DNA of 34,883 nt from a virus: the IMG/VR virus record IMGVR_UViG_3300033064_004879, positions 1-34,883 of that record. One strand, written 5' to 3'. The translations under genes and the position numbers were made by a program. Below are positions 338 to 34,883 of this stretch, piece by piece. The notes under the pieces were generated by a model, which saw nothing but the letters and a program-made list of their open reading frames with translations, was not told where the DNA came from and did not search any database. The stretch's first letter is position 1, and each line of letters begins with the position of its first letter.

Positions 338-3300
338 CGTTCAAATAATCCGAGAAGGTTCAGATGGAACTTCTGAGCTTCTGTTTAAAGCTGACAATAT
401 GTTAGTGGATGGTTTGCGCGAAACTATTGCCGACGCATTAACTTTTAAACCGAGTCCGTCCGGTTCGTATGCTCCAATGAATGGAGTCAGCTCCGTTTCT
501 AGTTATCAGATACAAGCATTCTCTCTAGGCAGCGCTAAGGATTATTACGATTTAAGGGATTCTAGATTCTATTTTAGCGCGCAACAAACCAGTAATTCAC
601 ATTATCATCTTTTAAAACCAACAGAGTCTGATAACCCTGAAGGTCTATTTTCTCTAACTGGAAAGATTTTTAATCAATGGAAGTATGAAAATTCTAATTT
701 GGTTGAGGATTTTCCCTACACTCGTTTTGAATTTTCAAGCGGTAAGGCTAGAACAGTGTTTCGTCGCGCCGTACCGATAAGGCTTGGGGGTGATTACTTC
801 GTGTACCTTAAGGGGAAGGCTGATAGAGCAACTTTGGATATTCGTTTTTGTCGTGGTAATAATAACACTCCAATGGAGTATTATGATTACAAGACGAATA
901 AGTTTGCAGCCCCTCTCGACACCACAAAAAGCGCTATTTCTAAAACAGTATTGCTGTCCGCTACGGAAGATGTTTACGAGTGGAAGGTAAAGCTGTATGG
1001 TGAGCAAGAGGACGCTATCTTTTCTGAATGGACTGAGTATTATGTTGAGTTGGAATTCCCATCTTACTCTTTTCGGGATGAGTGGTTTGCTCCGTGGGAT
1101 GCGAACTACAAGAATCCTTTTATTGAATTAAAGAGTTTTGAATTAATTGATTCGCGAAGCCAGATTTTAGGCAATCCTAGATTTCTTGAGGCTCAAAGCA
1201 AACTTCTCAATAGTGCATTTGAGCATACTACCTCTTTTGCTTTTGATTCCGTAAAGAACCTTCCCGCTTGCGAAGCAGTAGGTTTGAAGCGCATATCCGC
1301 TTGGACTCAGTATAATCCACTTGCGATCTATTCAATTGATCCAGGCACCACCGAAACTGCATCGGGTTTGGGTTGGGTTAAACCTGCAAACGCTGGCGTG
1401 TTTAAAGACACCGTGTTTTCATCTATGGTTGATGGAGTAGTTTTGTATGCTTCGTCTGTCGCGCTAGATTCGAGCGGAGCCTCGAACATATCACAGACAT
1501 TTTATCTACAATCAGACTTTAGAAACACTTATGCATTTGGGGATGGTCAATTCAAGAACACCCCCATTAATTTAAATGCTGCGCACGGACAGGCGGATGG
1601 GAACAAAACAGTTGTTTTGTGTTTTGACTCAATGGTTTCAGGAGAGGGTACTGCTGCCAATTGTGGGTATCTGCATATCTCATTTATTAAAAATAATGAT
1701 GGCACTAAGTATAATTTTTCTGCAAATCAAATTACTGGCAAGAAAAACTATTTCTCACCGGACGGCGCAGATCTGATATACTCATTTGCTGCAAAAGACA
1801 CTTGGTATAACGAAGGGGTGCCAATAAATCTTCCTGCCACCGCTGACAATCAAAGCTATACTATCCTAATACGAGGGAGCGGGCGAGTTGGTTCTGGCGG
1901 ATTTTGTTATTATGGTTTAAAAAATGTACGCGTAGCTGACATAGGCTGGGGCTTGTTTAACTACAACGCGTATTCTGTTGCTACTGTTAAATATGTGTAT
2001 CCAAAGGCTCCATTTGCGGTAAGTGGGGAACTGTGTAGTTCCATATATGTTAGTTCCAACGACAATTATGGCGCTATAAGTGTTTATACGAATTTGAGGG
2101 ACATTATAAATAACCCAGTGGACCCCAACAAAGTACAGTTCGTAAGACAGTTTACTGGTCTAGAACCAACCAAGAGTTATGTTGTGACGATCAAAGGTGG
2201 GTACAAAACAAAAGCTCCTGAGTTTTCTACCTTATTAAAAGCGAAGTCTAGAGGTGGCAGATCGAGCGGGTCTTATAATATTCTCGGATCTTGGTTTACA
2301 GATGCCAGCAACCCAAGCTCAACAAATATTGTTTCTGAACTAACACCATACTCCAACAGAACAGGTGTTACACGGTCTACCTTTCCATCCTTCCAAAAAA
2401 CACTAGACTCTCTGTCAGTAGCACCTACTGATTGGGGTGTCATTCTTGCCGCCTCCGCCTCTATATCAGAACAGGTCACTGCTAACACTGGTGAGTATAT
2501 TTTCTCAGTTGATGTGTTTAACGAGACAGCTGATGGTTCCTACTTCGTACTGAGTTCGTTACGAGCAGCTAACATCCATACTTTCTTTAATTGGGACGAT
2601 GGTGAATGGGAATCATTTACTCCCGCACAAGCTCCTTTCTATGGTGGCGAGACTTCTGGACCTTACTTTTTACAGTTACCAAGTACGCCGAGCAAAAATA
2701 GTTTCGACCACTATAAGTATGATGTGGTCATACCACTAAACACACAGTCTAATGTAGAGGTGTTTGGCAAACCAACATTGGATACTTATGGTTCCCGTGG
2801 GGATTGGAGACTAACAGCTTCTGTGTATGGTCCAACTTTTTCTGGGGCAGGAAAAGTTTCAATCTCAAATATCGCAATGCGGGGGTCTGGATTAAGTCCG
2901 TCCGTTGATATTTGGAAAGAGCTTTATTACGATTTTTCTAATCGTCGCTGGATACCACTGTTACCAGCCCCATTTAACACAACTACATTCAGTGCATTAG
3001 AGGGTCCGTCTGTAAACGGGTATATCCCGTTCGTTTATACAGTACAGAACCCAATAACAAATATGTGTGTGTCCGGGTTAGACCGAGACGCAGAATATCA
3101 ATTGAATGTGGTGGATATATCAGGTGGTGAGTATTTCATTAACAATATCAGCATAACTGATTTTTCCTTGTTAATGGATTCTGGTAAAGAGTCATGGGTA
3201 AGGGATCGAAGAATCTTTACCAGTGAACCTTACGCCGACAAAAAATTCTTTGGGTGGGGAAAATCAACTGTGGTTAAGTTGTTCAATAACGGATTGCTTA

Positions 3301-5264: not shown

Positions 5265-8200
5265 ATGGCAAGCTATAAAGACATTACTAGTTCGGGCGGC
5301 AATGGGATCCTACCTTTGGAGTGGGATGTTAATGTCCCTAAATATGACCCCAGTTCTTTTTATTCCTGGGAGCAAGACAATATACCCCTATGGTCTTTGG
5401 AGCGGCGTGGGAATATTTTGTACAACGCTATGGGCTTTCCTGGTGGAAACCCGGAGGGTATTACCTTCGTACTGTCCAGCGCAGGAAATGTTGATGAGAG
5501 CAATGGAGTTTATGATTCAATCGCTGATATTGTTGAGCGTATCCCAAAAAGGTTAAAATTCCCTGTCTTAGTGGAGATATGCACTTATGGGGATCTTGGA
5601 ACTTTAGACCTTGGTAACATTACATGTGAAGGAGATGGGATTCTTGAATTTAGAAACCGAGCCTTCTTCGAAGATACTCACGCATCCTCGCAAGGCATTG
5701 TCAGTCTTACTGGCGGTCCAGATGGTGCTAGTAATTTTATAAACAATGTTTATTCTTTAGAAGCGTCGTCTGATATGATAAACGCTTCCTCTACTCGCCT
5801 AGGTGTTATATTTGGCGATACTGTAAATTGGCAGACCCACGGTCGTTTCATTACGGCACAAGGACCAGACACAGATAGAGAAATGCATAACCTCACTGTG
5901 CATATCAGCAGCGGTACAGGCGTTACTCCATTCACTATAACTAATGGTGACAATGGTAAATTTAAATTTGACCCATACAGTCCATTCCAGGACAGGTCTA
6001 TTTCAGCTTTAGATGCTTCCGCGTACTACGGATCTTCAATCAATTCGTTCATGCGCGGTACAAAACGAGAAGTAACTTACACACAAGGACAGAGCACTTT
6101 AGTTGGGTATGGTAACTATTTCTCGAAGGTGCGGGTTAAGGATTGTCAAGGTAGTGTTATATTCCGAAATATTCTTGTGGATACTGCTTCTGGTGTGGAT
6201 AATGTCCACACTGACGGCACAATGCACATAGAAGAGGATGGTTGGGAAATAGATGGTAGCGAAGTCATCCTGGATAACACTGCGGCGTTTAGAGCTTTTG
6301 GTGTTGGCTACCATGTGAAAAATTCCCGTATTAAACTCACGGGTCATATGATCGCATGGCGAAACTATACCAAAGCAGGGAAAACTAACGCGGACAGAAC
6401 TGCGGACGGAACTGGAATGTTGGCAGTGAATACTGATATTCTATTTGATGCGACCGCATATCCACACAGCAGAAAATCACTGTTGTATTTTGGAAAGAGT
6501 AAGCGTGGAATGGATTTACGCAACTCTACTGTCCGTGGTGGTATTTATTGGGCGACGGCTTCTGGAATGCCCAACGGCGGATCTACAAAACTAGGAGCGA
6601 GTTACAACTCACACCAAGGAACGAGTTACGCCGCACTGTCTGGTGCTGGTGGAGACTTGCATACCACTATTCTTCATTTTTCAGAATGTAACGAGAATGG
6701 TCTACATTTAGAAGGCACCGACTTTGAATTCAAAGGAAGACTTAGTTCTTACCTTAACCAAGTTAACGGAATTGAAGCTCGGAGGTCACAACTCCGTTTA
6801 GCCCAATTTACTGTAAACCATAATTCTGAATTTGGCATTCGGCTTGAGGGTACGCAGCTCATATATGGCATAAATTCTGATCTTCTTCTTTCTAAGCCAG
6901 ATGCGTATGCTATTCATTTATACTGCAACACTTCGTTTGCTAATGGCGCAAATGACACCTCGAAACGAGTTCGAGCACGCGCTCAATTCCATGTAGATTC
7001 AAACAATCAAAATCTACTTGTTGATAAAGCTTCCTCAGTGTCCCCATTCCGCGTTAACGCTATACCAGTTAAATTTGGTCGGTGGGGTGGATCAGATTGG
7101 TTGTATGATACTTTGGGCACGGCGAGTAGTGCCTTGCCAGCCAACCATTATGGGGCTACTCCGTTCCGGGCTGGCAATAAGCCAGGTATTGTTGTTTCCA
7201 ACAATTCTTCCGCTGAAATAGTTCACTTGCAGTATGCTGTTAATAGCACCGACACTTGTAAAGGGAAGGTAGCAATTGCGTCAAATGGATCCACATTATT
7301 CCTTCGTGGTTCATCTGCTGCTGCAACAACTTTTAATTACTACCCTGTCAATACTGTCCTCACCCAATTTAGAAGTTGGCTAACAGCTGGTGTAGTCGCA
7401 ATTTCTAATTCTAAAGTCGAGATTACTGGACCAACAAAAACAGCGCGTTTTGGTGTGCCTTTCTTGGCGGAAGATAATTCACAGTTTGTTTGCAAACCGC
7501 CAACTCTTGTTGGCACAGACAATATCTTAGATATTTCTGGTTACACTTTACTCACCGTGTCTTCTAACCATACTTCGTTAGAGGTACATGCTACACGATC
7601 ATGTTTGGTCGCAAATAAAAAATCTGGAATCGTTTTCTATGCTGTCGGTGGAAAAACTAGATCCACTTCCAATGGATCCAATGTACTTAACTCTGTTGAT
7701 GTATTTTCTACGGAGTACGCTGATACCCTATTAGTTGGGGATCACTTTAATCAATTTTTACACGCTACCTCTGGTGGTTATGTAAAAATGTATCCCAACG
7801 CATTCACCAGCGCTGTCGCTACACTTCCTGCTGTACAGGTAGACATAGTAAATGCGTTTGACCCCACAAAGAGATTTATTCTTCCTGCGACTGAGCACGC
7901 CGCGCATACAACTGGTGGTATGTGTGTTCGCGCCGTGATGGATAGTTTTGTGGATGTAAACTTAGTGAACTTCCATATGTTCACTGCCCCAAGTTCATTA
8001 TCAGGAGCTTACTATAATTACGCTGGGTCTGGGTGTGAATATTGTCCCGATGCTGCTGGCGATTCAGGAGGTGGTAATACTACCCCGCCTGGGGGTACAG
8101 GGTTTACTGAAGTTCCAGCCCCGCCTGGGGGTGGTTTACCTCCAGGAATGTTTGAAGTCGGCGGTGGAGGAACAGGCGGAGGTCCAGGCGAATTAGAAGA

Positions 8201-9329
8201 TTGGACTGCTGGTCGCATCAAAGATAACCCAGGATCGACCAATACTTTTGGTACTAACTCTACCGCAGCCGGGGAAGGACATTCCACCTATATCACTGCG
8301 GGTAAAGGTAACAACAGTGCGTTCATGAATCTGGAACACCCCACTGATCCGACAGTTATAGGGGATGAGATGAGTACGGGTGCCCGCCGAGAATTGTATG
8401 GAACGGACGCAGACGGTAATGACATATGGTCCCAGATTGACTGGGAAACAGTCCAGCCAAGTTGCATGGGCAGCCAAATCCACATTTGGAATATCGCTGA
8501 TTCTTCTAGGATCCACGCAGCAAACTGCCTACTAAATGGTGTGGACCCAGAAACTCACTGTCTTAACACTGCAAACTACCACGGTCCAACGGGGAAATGG
8601 TTCAACGGCGTAGCCTTGGATTACTACGGGTTGGGTGGTCGCAGGACTAGTTATGGCGCTTTAGGAAACGCCCACCATAACAACGGAATCTTTAGGTTGA
8701 TGTTGTCCACTCGCGGGGACTTAAAAACATTCTACTCTGTGAGTTCTTTAAGTTCTAATACTAATGTTTGGAAAGACACTGAAGCATCTGGTGGATGCGC
8801 TTTGGATCAAATAAACGGTGCAGGTTATATGCACTGGACACAATGCGTTCGTCCTCTCGATGGATCTGACGAGAGGCGCTTGTTCAGGCAGGATAACGAC
8901 TACCCTGAAGGTGACTATCAGACCTCCTCTGCTGGCAGAGTGTTCGGGTGGGGATATCCAGCGCAAGCAATTTATAGCGGTGTAGGGACAATACAGAGCC
9001 GCATGAGTGGCTTCAGTGCTTACAACGCGCTTTCAAGTACGACTCCAGATACCGCGTTCTTCTACGCTTCCATGGCACCAGTAATGCCAATGCCTCCTTT
9101 ACACATGGAATGGCAGGGGTACTTGCGGAACTTCTTTGACCAGACCGCATCTAATGTATGGCAAAACACCAAGCATCTATCCGAGGATAAAGTTAACGGT
9201 GTGTCTATCTATAGATCCCACAGGGGTACATTCAACGGCGGCGAAGGCAGGGATGGTGACACGAAGTGGTCTTCTTTCGGGGTTGGAGTTAGATCTCTCA
9301 ACCTATTTGACCTAGATAGAGTATTGTAA
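5265..9329 (+). CDS. Large beta-helix tail fibre/tailspike-like protein (1354 aa)
   Basis: A 1354-residue virion protein. The N-terminus has the motif DNIPLWSLERR (about residues 38-48), echoed in the next protein (DNLPLKDL), probably a shared docking segment. Residues ~100-800 read as a right-handed parallel beta-helix, with repeated turns of the type NENGLHLEGT (~474), VNGIEARRSQ (~499) and EFGIRLEGTQ (~521). A Gly/Pro-rich hinge (about 930-975) separates it from a C-terminal domain rich in Trp, His, Asn and Gly that is probably the receptor-facing tip. Beta-helix proteins on phage tails often bind or cut surface polysaccharide; no catalytic residues can be named here. The stop overlaps the next ATG by one base (TAATG). 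The fold call is from repeat pattern only. Confidence 0.8.
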   Translation: MASYKDITSSGGNGILPLEWDVNVPKYDPSSFYSWEQDNIPLWSLERRGNILYNAMGFPGGNPEGITFVLSSAGNVDESNGVYDSIADIVERIPKRLKFPVLVEICTYGDLGTLDLGNITCEGDGILEFRNRAFFEDTHASSQGIVSLTGGPDGASNFINNVYSLEASSDMINASSTRLGVIFGDTVNWQTHGRFITAQGPDTDREMHNLTVHISSGTGVTPFTITNGDNGKFKFDPYSPFQDRSISALDASAYYGSSINSFMRGTKREVTYTQGQSTLVGYGNYFSKVRVKDCQGSVIFRNILVDTASGVDNVHTDGTMHIEEDGWEIDGSEVILDNTAAFRAFGVGYHVKNSRIKLTGHMIAWRNYTKAGKTNADRTADGTGMLAVNTDILFDATAYPHSRKSLLYFGKSKRGMDLRNSTVRGGIYWATASGMPNGGSTKLGASYNSHQGTSYAALSGAGGDLHTTILHFSECNENGLHLEGTDFEFKGRLSSYLNQVNGIEARRSQLRLAQFTVNHNSEFGIRLEGTQLIYGINSDLLLSKPDAYAIHLYCNTSFANGANDTSKRVRARAQFHVDSNNQNLLVDKASSVSPFRVNAIPVKFGRWGGSDWLYDTLGTASSALPANHYGATPFRAGNKPGIVVSNNSSAEIVHLQYAVNSTDTCKGKVAIASNGSTLFLRGSSAAATTFNYYPVNTVLTQFRSWLTAGVVAISNSKVEITGPTKTARFGVPFLAEDNSQFVCKPPTLVGTDNILDISGYTLLTVSSNHTSLEVHATRSCLVANKKSGIVFYAVGGKTRSTSNGSNVLNSVDVFSTEYADTLLVGDHFNQFLHATSGGYVKMYPNAFTSAVATLPAVQVDIVNAFDPTKRFILPATEHAAHTTGGMCVRAVMDSFVDVNLVNFHMFTAPSSLSGAYYNYAGSGCEYCPDAAGDSGGGNTTPPGGTGFTEVPAPPGGGLPPGMFEVGGGGTGGGPGELEDWTAGRIKDNPGSTNTFGTNSTAAGEGHSTYITAGKGNNSAFMNLEHPTDPTVIGDEMSTGARRELYGTDADGNDIWSQIDWETVQPSCMGSQIHIWNIADSSRIHAANCLLNGVDPETHCLNTANYHGPTGKWFNGVALDYYGLGGRRTSYGALGNAHHNNGIFRLMLSTRGDLKTFYSVSSLSSNTNVWKDTEASGGCALDQINGAGYMHWTQCVRPLDGSDERRLFRQDNDYPEGDYQTSSAGRVFGWGYPAQAIYSGVGTIQSRMSGFSAYNALSSTTPDTAFFYASMAPVMPMPPLHMEWQGYLRNFFDQTASNVWQNTKHLSEDKVNGVSIYRSHRGTFNGGEGRDGDTKWSSFGVGVRSLNLFDLDRVL

Positions 9330-10828
9330 TGGCTGACAGAATTTCCGAAGACATTCGTTTTTACCTTGCCGGGGATCCATACTACTTTGAAGTTGACAAC
9401 CTACCTTTAAAAGATTTGGTTGACAATGATAGAATTCTTCAGGCGCAAATTGACGAGTTGAGATCTGGCGGGACTAAAGTAACTCGATCAGGTATTTTAG
9501 AATTACAACCCTATATTGACCCCGCCTCCCCAGGCAGAGTATTTGTTCGTTCCGGCTCTTTTATTGGTCGCATTCAGAGAAGCGCAGATTCTGATTTAGG
9601 TGGGAGTCCTGTAAAGGGAATTAATGGTGGGACAAACGAAAAGAAATTTCCGCCCACCAAAGGAGCCGTGGGGAGCGTTGATTATTCTGTTGATATTGAA
9701 TCCGAGCAACTCGGCACGCTTGGGTATAAAGCAGAAACTGTTGGTCGGACTGCTGTAGTTACTTTTAATGGTGGCGGAATTGACATAGACCCTTTTGGTC
9801 CAGATGAGTTTGCAAACAAAGGGGGCGCATCAACAACACCCCCATTAGCGCGTATTGACTTGATAGGATTAACTACAGTTAACGGCGCTTTGGACGATCC
9901 GTACCTAAAGGGTCAAGCTTTGACTGATCTTATAACTGGCAACGGTTATGCAAAATTAGCAGTTGTACGAGGAGCGGGAATCGTACAAGGAACCACTTCC
10001 AAGATTCGCCAAGTAGTTAGAGGGGAGAAGTATGTTACTGTAGGAATCCCCCAAGAGGATTTAAATGCCCTAGGTTACAATTTAGATGGATCCCCATCAA
10101 GATCTCCACAGTTCGGAACTGTCCCTTTGCCAGACGATCTGGTAAATATTTGTTTTTCCAAACAAAGCATTACTGAAGCACTAAATGATTTTGCGGAAAG
10201 AAATCGCAATGCATCATTCTTTTTACCACTAGCATATGTATTTGTTCCCAACACATTCCAAGGGAACAGCCCAATCCCCTCTTCGTTCTTACGGGATATC
10301 CGCCCAATATTCAGAACTGCTGAGTTAACCTTGGATGAGCGACAAGCGATTGCTGCCTCTTTAAACCCAAGCATTACCAATCCGGTTATTACCAAAACGC
10401 ATCTTACCGAGGAATTGGGCAACATCGTTTCTTACAGAGGGAAAGTCATTGTGTGCCGACGAGCAAACAACTCGCCCGCAGTTTGTACAGCTGCGAGACT
10501 CTCCCAGGGTGTATGGACTTGTACAATAAATTATGAGTCGGACAATGACCAGCTTGGACAACATTTTGTTGATGTGAATACTGGAACTGGTCCGCCAAGA
10601 TCTGATCATATTGGAAGAACTTATGTTGGTGCTGGTGGGTTTGTTGCTGGGTCTTATACTTTCTATGAGGTCGTAGCAGAACCTCTCAAAACAGTATTCT
10701 TGTCATTACGAAGCGACACAACGGCGAGCATAGTGTTTCTCGGCAATATCCCCAACGCTTTTTCTGTAGCCGCGCTGTGGACTAAAATTAGTGACGATGT
10801 TAATGATATTGATATAATAGAAGCCTAA
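9329..10828 (+). CDS. Tail/baseplate structural protein with DN.PL..L N-terminal motif (499 aa)
   Basis: A 499-aa protein coupled to its neighbours by TAATG junctions at both ends. Near the N-terminus, YYFEVDNLPLKDL matches the pattern at the start of the beta-helix protein just upstream, so both probably dock at the same kind of site on the tail. The rest is Gly-, Thr- and Pro-rich with beta-strand-like segments and no enzyme motif. I do not recognise an individually named T4 homologue; proteins with this N-terminal motif are familiar as virion structural proteins in T4-like phages of aquatic bacteria, which is recollection and not a search. A structural role is likely, the precise location unknown. 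Confidence 0.75.
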   Translation: MADRISEDIRFYLAGDPYYFEVDNLPLKDLVDNDRILQAQIDELRSGGTKVTRSGILELQPYIDPASPGRVFVRSGSFIGRIQRSADSDLGGSPVKGINGGTNEKKFPPTKGAVGSVDYSVDIESEQLGTLGYKAETVGRTAVVTFNGGGIDIDPFGPDEFANKGGASTTPPLARIDLIGLTTVNGALDDPYLKGQALTDLITGNGYAKLAVVRGAGIVQGTTSKIRQVVRGEKYVTVGIPQEDLNALGYNLDGSPSRSPQFGTVPLPDDLVNICFSKQSITEALNDFAERNRNASFFLPLAYVFVPNTFQGNSPIPSSFLRDIRPIFRTAELTLDERQAIAASLNPSITNPVITKTHLTEELGNIVSYRGKVIVCRRANNSPAVCTAARLSQGVWTCTINYESDNDQLGQHFVDVNTGTGPPRSDHIGRTYVGAGGFVAGSYTFYEVVAEPLKTVFLSLRSDTTASIVFLGNIPNAFSVAALWTKISDDVNDIDIIEA

Positions 10829-24327: not shown

Positions 24328-24337
24328 TATTATAGTA
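24328..24337 (-). promoter_or_regulatory. TACTATAATA element (minus strand) before the sigma-factor gene
   Basis: Read leftward the 18-base divergent spacer gives TACTATAATA followed by TTAGTTGCT and the sigma-factor ATG; TATAAT ends 10 bases before the ATG, allowing a leader of a few bases only. Its outer end overlaps the polymerase start codon on the other strand. Confidence 0.4.
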
Positions 24338-25305
24338 TGGATCTAAACTTTATAACAAAAACATTTGGGAAGGAAGAACAACAAGAGGAATTCGAAAGAA
24401 CTCTTGGGGATCAACCCATAGTAATTATTAATTCTTCCCCCACACTAACTCGCGGCAAATTGGTAGAAATTACATCTGCACAATTAAAAGTGTGCGAGCC
24501 CCTAATTAAAGAAGCGCGCATCCCTGCGGACAAATATCAGTTTGTCCCAGCCATACCGCTTTCAAACTTAGACGAAAACGACATGACGACCGCACTGTAC
24601 AATGAGTACAGAGAGGAATTATTTGCCAAAATACGCCATATTAAGCCAAAGTTGATTATTGTGGCTGGTAACATCGCCCTGAAGACTTTATTAAAAAAAT
24701 CAGGCATTTCTAATAAGCGCGGAGTTGGTTTTGAATTTGAAGGTATACCTGTAGTTCCGACTCTAGCAATTGAAACTGTAGTGTTGGAACCCAAAGTGAG
24801 AGAGTTGTTTGTCCAAGATCTTACTAATGCTTACACCAAGTATATTCTTGATATACATAAGTTTCGTAACAAGGATTATAAAGTTGTAATGACCATGGAG
24901 GAAGTGGAAGAGGCTATTGCTGAGATAAGAAAGTATCCGGCACTTGGTGTGGATATTGAAACAACTGGATTAGACTTTATCAAAGATCGTATGCTGTCCA
25001 TTGCATTTGCATACGACGAAGGAAAATCTTTTTGTATTCCTATTTATCATAAAGAAAGCCCATTCACTGACATGGAAGTGCAGCACATCATGAGTTTGGT
25101 GGGAGAGGTGATGGCTTGCACACAAACTTGTAAAGTTTTTCATTCTGGGCAATTTGATATGAAATTTCTTATGGCAGCAGGAGTTAGAGTCTTTAATAAT
25201 ATTGGTGACACTAAGATACTCCACTCGTTGTTAAACGAGAACGCACCACACGGTTTGAAAGCTTTAATTAAAGAACGATTCCCAAAACAGTTAGAGAACC
25301 TATAA
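24337..25305 (+). CDS. DNA polymerase family A, N-terminal piece: UDG-like domain plus first half of 3'-5' exonuclease
   Basis: A 322-aa protein carrying the front of a Pol I-type polymerase. Residues ~28-165 resemble the uracil-DNA-glycosylase-like domain fused to several phage family A polymerases (IKPKLIIVAGNIALKTLL at 102-119, then RGVGFEFEGIPVVPT). From ~180 a DnaQ-like exonuclease begins: ExoI VDIETTGL with Asp206/Glu208, ExoII FHSGQFDMKFL with Asp274, then DTKILHSLL. It stops right after the helix HGLKALIKERFPK; the third exonuclease motif and the polymerase are in the next frame. The stop overlaps the next ATG (TAATG), so two subunits made by coupled translation are the simplest reading. 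The second frame is in -1 phase and a CCCAAAA heptamer lies at 25281-25287, so a frameshift fusion is an alternative. Confidence 0.85.
   Translation: MDLNFITKTFGKEEQQEEFERTLGDQPIVIINSSPTLTRGKLVEITSAQLKVCEPLIKEARIPADKYQFVPAIPLSNLDENDMTTALYNEYREELFAKIRHIKPKLIIVAGNIALKTLLKKSGISNKRGVGFEFEGIPVVPTLAIETVVLEPKVRELFVQDLTNAYTKYILDIHKFRNKDYKVVMTMEEVEEAIAEIRKYPALGVDIETTGLDFIKDRMLSIAFAYDEGKSFCIPIYHKESPFTDMEVQHIMSLVGEVMACTQTCKVFHSGQFDMKFLMAAGVRVFNNIGDTKILHSLLNENAPHGLKALIKERFPKQLENL
25281..25287 (+). other. CCCAAAA heptamer, possible -1 frameshift site joining the polymerase halves
   Basis: In the reading frame of the first polymerase piece it is C CCA AAA, the X XXY YYZ pattern. The -1 frame is open from 25272 (just after a TAA at 25269) straight into the second piece, so a slip here would yield one chain of about 815 residues. 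No stimulatory pseudoknot or upstream Shine-Dalgarno was established. Confidence 0.3.
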
Positions 25306-26810
25306 TGATCACTATAGCTGATGGAAAAAATAATGATTGGGCGGGCATGTCGCTTGAAGACTTAGCCTATGGCAATTCTATGGATGCCGATTTTACGCTC
25401 CGTCTATTTAAGGTGATGAAGCCAGAAGCCGATGCCACAGGTGTTTACCTAGTGTATGAGAAAGTTTTGCAAGATGCTCTGTCCATTTTATCCGAAGTAG
25501 AGTTTTTCGGGATAAAGATTGATGATCAAGTGGTTGCTGATTTGGATGTAAAATTACAATCAGAACTTAAAGATCTAGAGGTGCTGATACAAGAGGCTTC
25601 CCCGGTGAAGCCAATCAACATTAGCTCAAATGCGGATTTAATCCGCGTGCTATTCACTTCAGAAGGTTTTAGTGAAAAAGCATTTAAGCGCACGAAGAAA
25701 ACTAAAGCGCCCTCTACAAAGGAAGATCATTTGTTAATGGTCAAGCACGCAGCTAAAAATAATAAGACTGCTCCTTTTATTGATCTGGTATTGGCATACA
25801 AGGAGAGGGCAAAGCAGCATAAGACCTATGTAATGGGAGTGAAAGCGGCTGTTGCTTACAACGGTGAAAGCCGTGTGTATTCTAACTATAATTTTGGTGA
25901 TGTAGTAACTGGTCGCCTTAGCTGTTCCAAGTATTCAGTAAACGACGATGCTAAAGGTATTTCGTTCCATACACTACCAAGGAAGACTGGGGTTAACATT
26001 AGAGCCATGATGCGCGCTGATGGTGATATGTACTTCATAACTGCCGACTTCTCGCAAATGGAACTTCGTATTTTGGCTCAATGCAGCCGCGACGAGAATT
26101 TACTTAAAGCCTTTAATTCTGGTGAGGACTTACATAGTTTCACCGCGTCTTTAGTTTTTGGAAAACCAACATACCAAGTGACCGAGGAGGAAAGGCAGAT
26201 TGCAAAAAGTGTTAGCTTCCTTATTGTTTATGGTGGTGGTCCAAGGAAACTGGCAGAGCAGATAGGGCAATCAATGGAGTACTGTAAAGGTATATTTGAT
26301 ACTTATGAGAGCCTGTTTCCTCGCGTGTTTAAATGGATTGAGCAAGTCCATAAAGGAGTGCAGAAGAATAAACACGCAACTAGTTTGTTTGGTCGCCGCA
26401 GACACCTTAAAAATATTGATAGCCCAAATAAGTTTTACCAGTATAGGGCGCAAAGACAGGGGATGAACTTTGTTATCCAAAGTTCCGCATCTGATATCAT
26501 GTTACACTCTATTATTCAATTGGTACGCAAAATAAAACTTAGAGGGTTAAATGCACAAATGCTTGCCACCGTGCATGACTCTGTTGAGTTACAGTGCTCT
26601 GAAAAAGATTTAGACGCTGTATTGCAGTTGGTACGAGAAACACTAACTTCCACCAAAGAATTAAAAAGGGCTATTGGATTGGACTTTATTGTGCCTTTTG
26701 TCGTAGATATAGAGGTCGGTAGATCTTTCGGTTTTGGAGTACGGGCTAAATTTGATTCCGGCAAAATTTCCAACTTACCCCAAATTATAAAAGAGAATGA
26801 AGCATCCTAG
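25305..26810 (+). CDS. DNA polymerase family A, C-terminal piece: end of exonuclease plus polymerase domain
   Basis: A 501-aa protein with the Pol I polymerase motifs: motif A FITADFSQMELRILA (Asp248), motif B RQIAKSVSFLIVYGGG (Arg297, Lys301, Phe305, Tyr309) and motif C ATVHDSVELQ (His424, Asp425). The TGRLSC element sits at 202-207. Phe at the O-helix site suggests discrimination against dideoxynucleotides, as in E. coli Pol I. The first 35 residues complete the exonuclease domain of the preceding gene: SLEDLAYGNSMDADFTLRL aligns with E. coli ALEEAGRYAAEDADVTLQL, with Asp27 as the third-motif aspartate. Alone it would lack proofreading. It overlaps the previous gene at TAATG and the next by 14 bases. 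T4 itself has a family B enzyme. Confidence 0.93.
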   Translation: MITIADGKNNDWAGMSLEDLAYGNSMDADFTLRLFKVMKPEADATGVYLVYEKVLQDALSILSEVEFFGIKIDDQVVADLDVKLQSELKDLEVLIQEASPVKPINISSNADLIRVLFTSEGFSEKAFKRTKKTKAPSTKEDHLLMVKHAAKNNKTAPFIDLVLAYKERAKQHKTYVMGVKAAVAYNGESRVYSNYNFGDVVTGRLSCSKYSVNDDAKGISFHTLPRKTGVNIRAMMRADGDMYFITADFSQMELRILAQCSRDENLLKAFNSGEDLHSFTASLVFGKPTYQVTEEERQIAKSVSFLIVYGGGPRKLAEQIGQSMEYCKGIFDTYESLFPRVFKWIEQVHKGVQKNKHATSLFGRRRHLKNIDSPNKFYQYRAQRQGMNFVIQSSASDIMLHSIIQLVRKIKLRGLNAQMLATVHDSVELQCSEKDLDAVLQLVRETLTSTKELKRAIGLDFIVPFVVDIEVGRSFGFGVRAKFDSGKISNLPQIIKENEAS

Positions 26811-32639: not shown

Positions 32640-33920
32640 ATGTACCAATTTAGCGAATCTATCCAACAGGGGATCATATACCTTGTTAAATCCGAGTTGG
32701 ATTTTGCAGTTCAAGCACTGCCATTAGTAAAGGCTGAGTATTTTGAATACCCTTGCCACCAAAAAATATGGTCTGTAGTATTTGATTTTTATACACAGTA
32801 TAAGAAGTTACCTTCTAATGATCAAATCCTAGAAGGCGTTCGTCTGATTAAGGCGAACACAGAACTTCTCTCTGATTACATGGCAGAACTAAAATCAATT
32901 GATTTGATTGATGTTAAGTCTATTGAAAATGAAGAGTTCTATTTAGATAAGGTAGAAGAGTTTGCAAAAGAAGAGGCAATCAAAGAAGCCATCGTAGAAT
33001 CAATTGACCTTATAAAACAAAAGAAATTTTCTGCTATCGCGGACAATATCCGCAAGGCTTTGAATGTCAGTCGGGAAGTTAATTTAGGGTCTGATTATTT
33101 TGGTGGCGTAACTGAAAGGTACCATCGAATGCAGACTTCTGGATTGACAGAGTTCTTTCGCACTCCATTCCCCACCATCAATAGTGAATTAGAAGGAGGA
33201 CTTGCCCCAAAAGAACTCGCTATGGTTGTAGCCCCTCCTGGAGTGGGAAAATCGCTGTTCTTAGCCAATCAAGGCGCCCGTTGCATTTTGGATGGTGAGG
33301 ATGTTCTTTACATTTCATTGGAAATGTCCGAAGACCGCGTAGCAGGAAGGTTCGACAGCATATTCACACGAATTAAGCAGACTGAATTGAAGTCGAATGT
33401 TATTGGGCTTGAGAACCGTCTAAGTGAAATCAAAACTCTTTCGGCAAAACTTGGAAGACTTAAAATAAAAGAATTCCCTACGAAACGATTAACTGTGTCC
33501 GCACTACGCGCATATCTAAATCAACTTCGTAATTACGAATCGTTTGTACCTAAAGTTATCATATTGGATTACTTAGAGTTGATGACGACTACTGATTTCT
33601 CCATGGCTGAACATTCAGCACAAGAACGCGTAGCCCAAGAGTTGCGTGGACTAGCCGTAGAGCACAAGTGTCTTGTTTGGACAGCCACTCAAACCAACCG
33701 CAAGGGGAAAGAAGTGGATGTCATCACAGATGCCGAATTAGCAGACTCATACGGAAAAATTCGTGTATGTGATTTAGCTTTTTCTATCAATCAAAAAGAG
33801 GAAGAGTTTGATCGCGGTAAGGCTCGTCTATACATTATGAAGTGTCGTAATGGACGCGCCCGCTATATTGTACCAGTAAAAATTGATTACTCTCGTTTAG
33901 TTATATCACAGGAAAATTAA
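32640..33920 (+). CDS. 41: Replicative DNA helicase, DnaB family (T4 gp41-like)
   Basis: A 426-aa hexameric 5'-3' helicase. I chose ATG 32640 because an AGGAAA ribosome-binding site (32629-32634) precedes it; an earlier in-frame ATG at 32553 lies wholly inside the dUTPase gene and would add a Pro/Lys-rich peptide read from another frame. The N-terminal helical domain (1-150) is followed by the RecA-like core: Walker A APPGVGKS (198-205), LYISLEMSEDRVAGR with Glu228, Walker B VIILDYLELM (306-315), and WTATQTNRKG with the sensor Gln. The C-terminal KCRNGRARY matches the arginine-finger/motif 4 region. Length is near T4 gp41 (475 aa). It is the last AT-rich gene of the operon; a primase is not in the window. 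Confidence 0.94.
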   Translation: MYQFSESIQQGIIYLVKSELDFAVQALPLVKAEYFEYPCHQKIWSVVFDFYTQYKKLPSNDQILEGVRLIKANTELLSDYMAELKSIDLIDVKSIENEEFYLDKVEEFAKEEAIKEAIVESIDLIKQKKFSAIADNIRKALNVSREVNLGSDYFGGVTERYHRMQTSGLTEFFRTPFPTINSELEGGLAPKELAMVVAPPGVGKSLFLANQGARCILDGEDVLYISLEMSEDRVAGRFDSIFTRIKQTELKSNVIGLENRLSEIKTLSAKLGRLKIKEFPTKRLTVSALRAYLNQLRNYESFVPKVIILDYLELMTTTDFSMAEHSAQERVAQELRGLAVEHKCLVWTATQTNRKGKEVDVITDAELADSYGKIRVCDLAFSINQKEEEFDRGKARLYIMKCRNGRARYIVPVKIDYSRLVISQEN

Positions 33921-33923
33921 TAT

Positions 33924-34193
33924 ATGAACGAATCCACCACCAAGACCCCCGCCGAACTCCTCGCCTCCTGCTGCCGTGTGCGCGGCCCTCGGAGTGAGCG
34001 CATGATGGACCACCTGCCCAAACTCGAACTTGAACACGCGGCACTTGCCCGTGATATGGGTGCGGAATACCCGGACGGAATTGCTTACAGCTACGTAGGT
34101 AAGGCCCATTTCCAGGCTTGCAACAAGCGACTAGAGGCCCTGGAGGCGCAGATCGCCGCCCTCCGGCAGGAGTCCGAGAAGAAGGATGAGTAA
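33924..34193 (+). CDS. Small GC-rich hypothetical protein (89 aa)
   Basis: An 89-aa protein starting three bases after the helicase stop; its ribosome-binding site AGGAAA (33910-33915) lies within the end of the helicase gene. It has a basic start, a central LELEHAALARDMGAEYPDG section and a C-terminal helix (CNKRLEALEAQIAALRQESE) likely to form a coiled coil. I do not recognise it. Base composition changes abruptly at this gene: 42 of 60 bases at 33961-34020 are G or C, against 25 of 60 at 33841-33900. Confidence 0.7.
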   Translation: MNESTTKTPAELLASCCRVRGPRSERMMDHLPKLELEHAALARDMGAEYPDGIAYSYVGKAHFQACNKRLEALEAQIAALRQESEKKDE

Positions 34194-34422
34194 CTACCAA
34201 CTACCCAAGACCCCCACCGTCACCTTCCTCATTCGCTACCAGAACGAGGCCGCCGACAGCGAAACGCCGGGACGCCTCACCTTTGTCGATAGTTCCGCCC
34301 GCGACGGCGTTGGCATCCCCGAAGTCGAGGAGATGGCCTGCGAATCCGTCAAGCGGTTCATCAACGACTACTACGGCTGGGACTGCGTGGGTCGTGTTGA
34401 GATTGAAGTGGAGGATGCATGA
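34186..34422 (+). CDS. Small GC-rich hypothetical protein (78 aa)
   Basis: A 78-aa acidic protein overlapping the previous gene by 8 bases. It reads as a small alpha/beta domain: strand TVTFLIRYQN, strand GRLTFVDSS, helix EVEEMACESVKRFINDYYGW and a final strand GRVEIEVED. No known family is recognised. Overlapping starts and GC-rich third positions support it as genuine and part of the same foreign-looking block. Confidence 0.65.
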   Translation: MSNYQLPKTPTVTFLIRYQNEAADSETPGRLTFVDSSARDGVGIPEVEEMACESVKRFINDYYGWDCVGRVEIEVEDA

Positions 34423-34682
34423 ACGATACCGAACACCAACACTCGCTCCGCTCGCTGGCTGCTGCAATGGCGGCACAGCGTGTCGGCTACCAACAGGCCG
34501 CGATGGATGTGGCTGCCGCGCTCGCTCGCCTGGAGGCGCTGGCGGGGCGGTGGGCAGAGTACGGCTGTGGTTGCCGACCGTTCTGCGGGGAGGCCTGCTT
34601 GGTCAGGAGTGAAGTGTCCGGTGAGTTTGCGGACGAACTCCGCGCCGCCCTCGACGCGCCGCTGGCCGGGGAGGTGGTGTGA
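34419..34682 (+). CDS. Small GC-rich, Ala-rich hypothetical protein (87 aa)
   Basis: An 87-aa protein with an ATGA overlap to the previous gene and TGATG to the next. The N-terminal half is Ala/Leu-rich helix (QAAMDVAAALARLEALAG); a small cysteine cluster CGCRPFCGEAC around residues 50-60 may bind metal or be oxidised. No family recognised. Frames on both strands are open here because of high GC; this frame was preferred for its coupled start and stop. Confidence 0.55.
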   Translation: MNDTEHQHSLRSLAAAMAAQRVGYQQAAMDVAAALARLEALAGRWAEYGCGCRPFCGEACLVRSEVSGEFADELRAALDAPLAGEVV

Positions 34683-34883
34683 TGGGCGATATGGCTGACT
34701 GGTTTATCGGGCAAGGCTTCGATAGTAATATCGACAACGGTCTCAACGGGGAGGATGTCCCGCTCTACGAGTGGGAGCCAAAGACCTGTCGATACTGTGG
34801 CAAACCTGGGCTGGAGTGGACAAAGACTAGGGCTGGATGGCGTCTATGGGAACCCCACGATAGTCGTACTGTCCATGTCTGCC
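34682..34883 (+). CDS. Zinc-motif small protein (partial, runs off the window)
   Basis: The first 67 codons of a gene that continues past the end. The start MGDMADWFIGQGFDSNIDNG is followed by a cysteine pair CRYC, then GKPGLEWTKTRAGWRLWEP and HDSRTVHVC, a C-x2-C ... H-x5-H-x-C arrangement that probably binds one zinc. Small proteins of this layout occur in many phage early regions; that is recollection only. It overlaps the previous stop (TGATG) and shares the high GC content of this block. Confidence 0.65.
   Translation, partial: MGDMADWFIGQGFDSNIDNGLNGEDVPLYEWEPKTCRYCGKPGLEWTKTRAGWRLWEPHDSRTVHVC

Follow-up and report, generated by a model that had tools for sequence, protein, structure and literature searches.

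The right end of the 34,883-base window, which is the whole of a linear IMG/VR record and whose right edge is the contig end, carries a GC-rich block of small genes directly behind the replicative helicase of an AT-rich phage. We favor, at a probability of roughly 0.6, the reading that recent natural recombination placed a mosaic accessory module at this position. We consider a shuffled module that moved between unrelated phages a likelier origin of the block than a simple error of assembly. The initial annotation had offered two possibilities, a recently acquired cassette or an assembly chimera of two phages; the recurrence of parts of the block in an unrelated AT-rich contig and the placement of its borders at start codons favor the cassette and weaken the chimera. 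In the latter case, a short overlap near 33924 would have led, during assembly or library preparation, to a false extension of the AT-rich contig into a GC-rich phage from the same sample. We give this serious weight, although we hold it to be the less probable of the two.

A composition step behind the replicative helicase

The AT-rich part of the window belongs to a contractile-tailed phage and encodes a major head protein, tail sheath and tube, SbcC/SbcD-like proteins, a ribonucleotide reductase, a dUTPase, a DnaB-like helicase and a family A DNA polymerase divided between two genes. The exonuclease and polymerase genes of the latter abut in the window (24337-25305 and 25305-26810); in the related contigs G001 and G002 they stand about 1.2-1.4 kb apart, and the additional DNA may reflect the loss or gain of a mobile gene.

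Across 33924-33949 the GC content rises from about 43% to 61.5%, the biggest step in the window. In 500-bp intervals it runs at 36-52% until 33.9 kb and at about 60% beyond, and no 960-bp stretch outside the block exceeds 50.7% (mean 42.7%, sd 2.6%). Measured between 480-bp halves, the step is 0.206 at the junction and at most 0.125 elsewhere in the window, while GC3 is 0.35 in the helicase gene and 0.60-0.76 in the block. The second-highest composition peak of the window, with local GC of up to 52%, lies at 8001-8500 within a long gene (5265-9329). The fitted change point (Table 1) bears out the abrupt turn that the initial annotation had placed at 33924. Its GC counts, 42/60 for 33961-34020 against 25/60 for 33841-33900, were exact on recount, and both the ATGA/TGATG overlaps within the block and the ribosome-binding site of the first gene on the AT-rich side, an AGGA, are present in the sequence as it had described. 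With its sharp border and its difference from the resident genome, the block has the composition of a horizontally acquired phage gene module. It also shows no adaptation to the composition of the resident phage, a point that speaks for a chimera as well.

Gene order over bases 1-33917 follows that of contig G002 and, beyond about 18 kb, that of G001 as well, both being contigs of contractile-tailed phages. This synteny ends exactly behind the complete helicase, whose C-terminus (...SQEN) agrees with that of the relatives L032 and L079. A helicase scan returned 80 related contigs. In 67 relatives the 957 bp behind the helicase never exceed 48% GC (maximum 0.478), and the block was absent from this place in all of them. 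Because co-linearity reaches 33917 and the relatives stay at or below 48% GC, the breaks in synteny and composition coincide directly behind the helicase.

The gene that follows the helicase encodes an HExxH motif in 44 of 75 relatives, the rest having other AT-rich genes. In near relatives this gene begins at the helicase stop or overlaps it, and its product is a protein of 104-118 aa with a HEICH motif and a weak metallo-protease match. This conserved HEICH(I/V)G protein, a possible zinc metallopeptidase, is found behind the helicase in near relatives, for instance in L079 from 9273, and not in more distant ones. A search of the whole window gave no convincing match to the HEICH gene, and the absence of a gene that the relatives lead one to expect here counts in favor of a chimeric contig.

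Organization of the GC-rich block

The initial annotation had counted four genes in the block. The fourth is cut by the contig end, and the open reading frame at 33924 is probably not one intact gene; the block is better described as a relic start/end segment followed by a 63-aa gene, two complete genes and a truncated gene (Table 1). DNA identity with a GC-rich island of another phage contig, the sister island described below, starts at 33927, right behind the ATG. The segment beginning there matches the start of a 117-aa island gene, and a similar segment begins the GC-rich contig G010. The gene-end segment that follows reads, by comparison of the contigs, as a relic of the end of the same 117-aa gene with the body missing. 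Because the body is missing and the end is out of frame, the open reading frame at 33924 is probably a read-through of the relic into the 63-aa gene, which has its own ATG and is likely the true first intact GC-rich gene. The start segments of the module read ATGAACGATACCGAACACCA and AACGAATCCACCACCAAGAC.

Table 1. Features at the window junction, in the GC-rich block and in the sister island (window positions unless L093 or G009 is named).
Feature	Position	Strand	Evidence or remark
DnaB-like replicative helicase, complete, AT-rich; last resident gene and junction anchor	32640..33920	+	phrog_19 E 4.7e-85; PF03796 E 1.9e-20
AT-rich leader of the resident phage: AGGA ribosome-binding-like site, helicase stop TAA (33918-33920), ATG (33924-33926)	33907..33926	+	sequence
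AT/GC junction	33924..33934	.	maximum-likelihood change point 33934 (log-likelihood ratio 74; 2-log-unit range 33924-33949)
Window border	33924		start codon
Gene-start segment NESTTKTPAELLA(S/D)CCRV	33927..33981	+	blastn vs L093 8224-8278, 95%
Gene-end segment VCAALGVSA*, readable only in another frame	33974..34005	+	side-by-side contig comparison
63-aa gene (MMDHLPKLELEH...), ATGATG start	34002..34193	+	coiled-coil-like C-terminus
78-aa gene	34186..34422	+	single-sequence model of low confidence, pLDDT 53
87-aa gene	34419..34682	+	start MNDTEHQ and end ELRAALD.PLAGEVV common to L093, middle strongly diverged
Small CxxC...HxC protein, cut by contig end	34682..34883	+	88% protein identity to L093 8001-8189
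L093 left border	7346		start codon
L093 right border	9736-9749		ATGs at 9745 and 9754
Tad1-like anti-Thoeris/anti-CBASS protein, inside GC-rich island	L093 8568-8885 = G009 1278-1595		

For the 63-aa protein the sole match, to a coiled-coil family, is below threshold (PF16326, E 0.003), and the 78-aa protein has no relative in Pfam, PHROGs, the phage collection or IMG/VR peptide patterns. The 87-aa gene shares 24 of 24 bases with the island at its start and about 90% at its end, with 35% protein identity over residues 11-87. The last gene product is a possible zinc ribbon; the AlphaFold model of this 67-aa protein is poor (pLDDT 51). None of the four window genes matched Pfam, PHROGs, NCBIfam or PADLOC or a known anti-defence family. 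Likewise, proteins 1-4 found nothing in the phage collection, proteins 1-3 nothing in IMG/VR by peptide patterns, and an exact 27-mer of the block had no match in IMG/VR.

An integron-type cassette array or a transposon was also considered and rejected. Repeats such as these elements would carry are lacking: the block has a single 15-bp direct pair and a single 13-bp inverted pair, and its genes, joined by ATGA overlaps, have no sites between them.

A sister island in an unrelated AT-rich phage

Protein 4 found a single relative, in L093, a piece of contig G009 (IMGVR_UViG_3300033064_003894, 139,837 bp). At the DNA level, the 250 bp at the window's right end are 90% identical to part of a GC-rich island of about 2.4 kb (L093 7346-9750). 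The island has 57-65% GC (about 60%) save for one gene, and G009 outside it averages 40%. The exception, at 8942-9160, has 46% GC and a GC3 of 0.44, so that the island is compositionally mixed. Since only two weak protein matches are shared outside the island, the G009 phage is unrelated to the window phage. Related DNA in unrelated replicons, as for an acquired module, is thus seen in L093 of G009 and again in L106 of G010, described below.

The island is flanked by AT-rich DNA on both sides, which argues against a chimera; the return of resident DNA on the far side is seen for this island, and the window contig ends within the block. The final 85 bp of the window are identical to L093. Its contig therefore stops inside a stretch shared with another phage, an assembly-breaking repeat, and this, together with the terminal position of the block, is what a chimera would leave. 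The island itself lies within 3 kb of a contig end. Its source, IMG 3300033064, is given in PMC9723730 as a co-assembly, made with MEGAHIT, of samples from Arctic Lake A, and chimeras are a known risk in such assemblies (e.g. PMC7417191).

The island also encodes a 106-aa protein with an Acb2/Tad1 hairpin domain (PF24729, 28.3 bits against a cut-off of 27). It matches Tad1 chains in the PDB with an E value of 4e-12 and an annotated Bacillus phage Tad1 with 53% identity. The similarity starts near residue 21-41, and the N-terminal part may, from the alignment, be shorter than or different from that of Tad1. As reviewed in PMC12043709, Tad1 sequesters gcADPR and cyclic nucleotides that serve Thoeris and CBASS. 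In having a hairpin-domain protein, at no more than 53% identity, the sister island resembles clusters that carry Tad1/Acb2 sponges; the sequenced part of the window block differs from them in having no such gene. A gene of a known anti-defence family, of which an anti-defence cluster should have one or more, is thus present in the sister island only. The window genes may possibly have an anti-defence role as well, judging by the company that their relatives keep with the Tad1-like gene.

Shared gene starts and ends around different bodies

A pattern for TKTPAELLA led to L106, part of contig G010 (IMGVR_UViG_3300032736_000130, 24,625 bp). This Mu-like phage encodes Mu-type portal, F and gpT/capsid proteins and has 58-69% GC over the 14.6 kb profiled. 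Within its first 800 bp, one gene is 98.8% identical over 161 bp to a sister-island gene; other matches are 84.5% over 200 bp to the island and 89% over 64 bp to the window block, and the shared segments are overall 84-99% identical to the island. Named phages gave no useful capsid or portal match from which to assign a host to G010. L107 also matched by peptide pattern, but by chance: its 388-aa protein is unrelated, and the composition of its phage is even. G010 resembles the block and the island in its start and end segments and in GC range. It differs from the window phage in being GC-rich throughout, whereas the latter is AT-rich and contractile-tailed, with its DnaB-like helicase, family A DNA polymerase and own ribonucleotide reductase. 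For a chimera, a GC-rich phage like G010 would fit the composition and module content of the block.

Set side by side, the window, G009 and G010 have the gene starts MNDTEHQ, NESTTKTPAELLA and MSEHTKDTQ and the gene ends ELRAALD.PLAGEVV and VCAA.GV in common. These segments surround different bodies, and their order differs between contigs. One gene occurs in three forms: complete in G009, with 117 aa, lacking its body but in frame in G010, and lacking its body and no longer in frame in the window. In L093/G009, both of its segments carry the direct repeat GC[TC]GCCGTGTGC, a likely deletion site.

A C-terminal segment P(I/V)YGEDLED is common to an AT-rich gene of G009 (L093 4858-5109), 2.2 kb before the island, and a GC-rich partner gene of G010 (L112 370-825). 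The likeness extends to the DNA level, and the rest of the two proteins looks unrelated. This sharing suggests repeated exchange rather than one assembly accident, with exchange that would have preceded adaptation of composition.

Borders at start codons

All three AT/GC borders, one in the window and two in L093, lie at start codons within the resolution of the fit (Table 1). At the right border of L093, the start of the AT-rich gene, AAACAATGAGAGAAC, resembles the starts of two GC-rich island genes, AAACAATGAGTGAAC and GCACAATGAGTGAAC. Random chimeric joins are not expected at such places. In the window, the break falls 3 bp past the helicase stop, behind the ATG and in frame, where a random break would rarely land, and the same kind of border is found twice in the unrelated contig.

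Among exact matches between the junction region and the compared phage pieces, the longest to extend into the AT side has 12 bp, and an ordinary de Bruijn-graph join between those phages would need more than that. The GC-rich phage compared shares no k-mer spanning the junction that is as long as those an assembler uses. The actual donor was not found among the compared phages, and a longer shared stretch at the junction is possible with it. Moreover, a single chimeric library molecule would hardly yield 960 bp.

Against natural transfer stand the position of the block at the contig end and the fact that all three carriers end in or near the module, the start segment of G010 sitting at base 1, itself a contig end. 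Furthermore, the block was seen in none of the relatives of the window phage, and its junction in no independent contig. The initial annotation had proposed the same junction in independent genomes as a test, and a search of IMG/VR with the exact 30-mer up to the junction returned none, in a set that may lack near-identical records.

Acquisition of host chromosomal genes, the other source of such a step, is very improbable: GC-rich bacterial DNA would produce the same step and morons often differ from their own phage in GC, but the scan of genome contigs gave only short partial matches to the last gene (a Treponema MAG and Dyella flagellata), proteins 1 and 4 had no match in plasmids, the matches that were found lie in phage contigs with head and tail genes, and small genes that overlap are a usual trait of phage accessory regions.

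Discussion

Under natural transfer, we infer the direction of transfer, recombination at the shared segments and expression as follows. The module would come from a pool of small genes circulating among GC-rich (about 60-63% GC, Mu-like) phages, a pool that would also enter unrelated AT-rich phages. New members may arise by swaps of gene bodies between short shared start and end segments (20-60 bp). With the junction right behind a start codon, the first imported frame would use the resident ribosome-binding site, and the imported genes would be co-transcribed with the helicase. The module genes probably act early against host defences.

The block resembles phage ORFan accessory regions, such as the ORFanage region of cyanophage S-PM2 (PMC4503421) and those in the literature on modular shuffling in T4-type phages, in its short unidirectional genes that lack database relatives, are gained and lost and have borders at gene ends. 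Unlike in those regions, the same segments occur here in phages of 40% and 63% GC from unrelated lineages, and what is shared are coding starts and ends, not promoter cassettes.

Should the contig prove chimeric after all, it would serve as a warning that such repeats join contigs of different phages. If the transfer is real, one small-gene module, with start codons at its borders and a Tad1-like gene beside it, is shared by a GC-rich Mu-like phage and two AT-rich phages that are unrelated to each other. Its signature, shared coding starts and ends around swapped bodies, could be used to find accessory, possibly anti-defence genes. More tentatively, and with considerable doubt, we propose that GC-rich phages keep a pool of small, probably anti-defence genes that is rebuilt by body swaps, and that unrelated AT-rich phages capture modules of it at start codons, where they would be translated at once. 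In the usual view, separate gene pools serve phages whose base composition differs widely; if the proposal is true, there would be a start-codon-anchored route of gene exchange across large differences in GC content.
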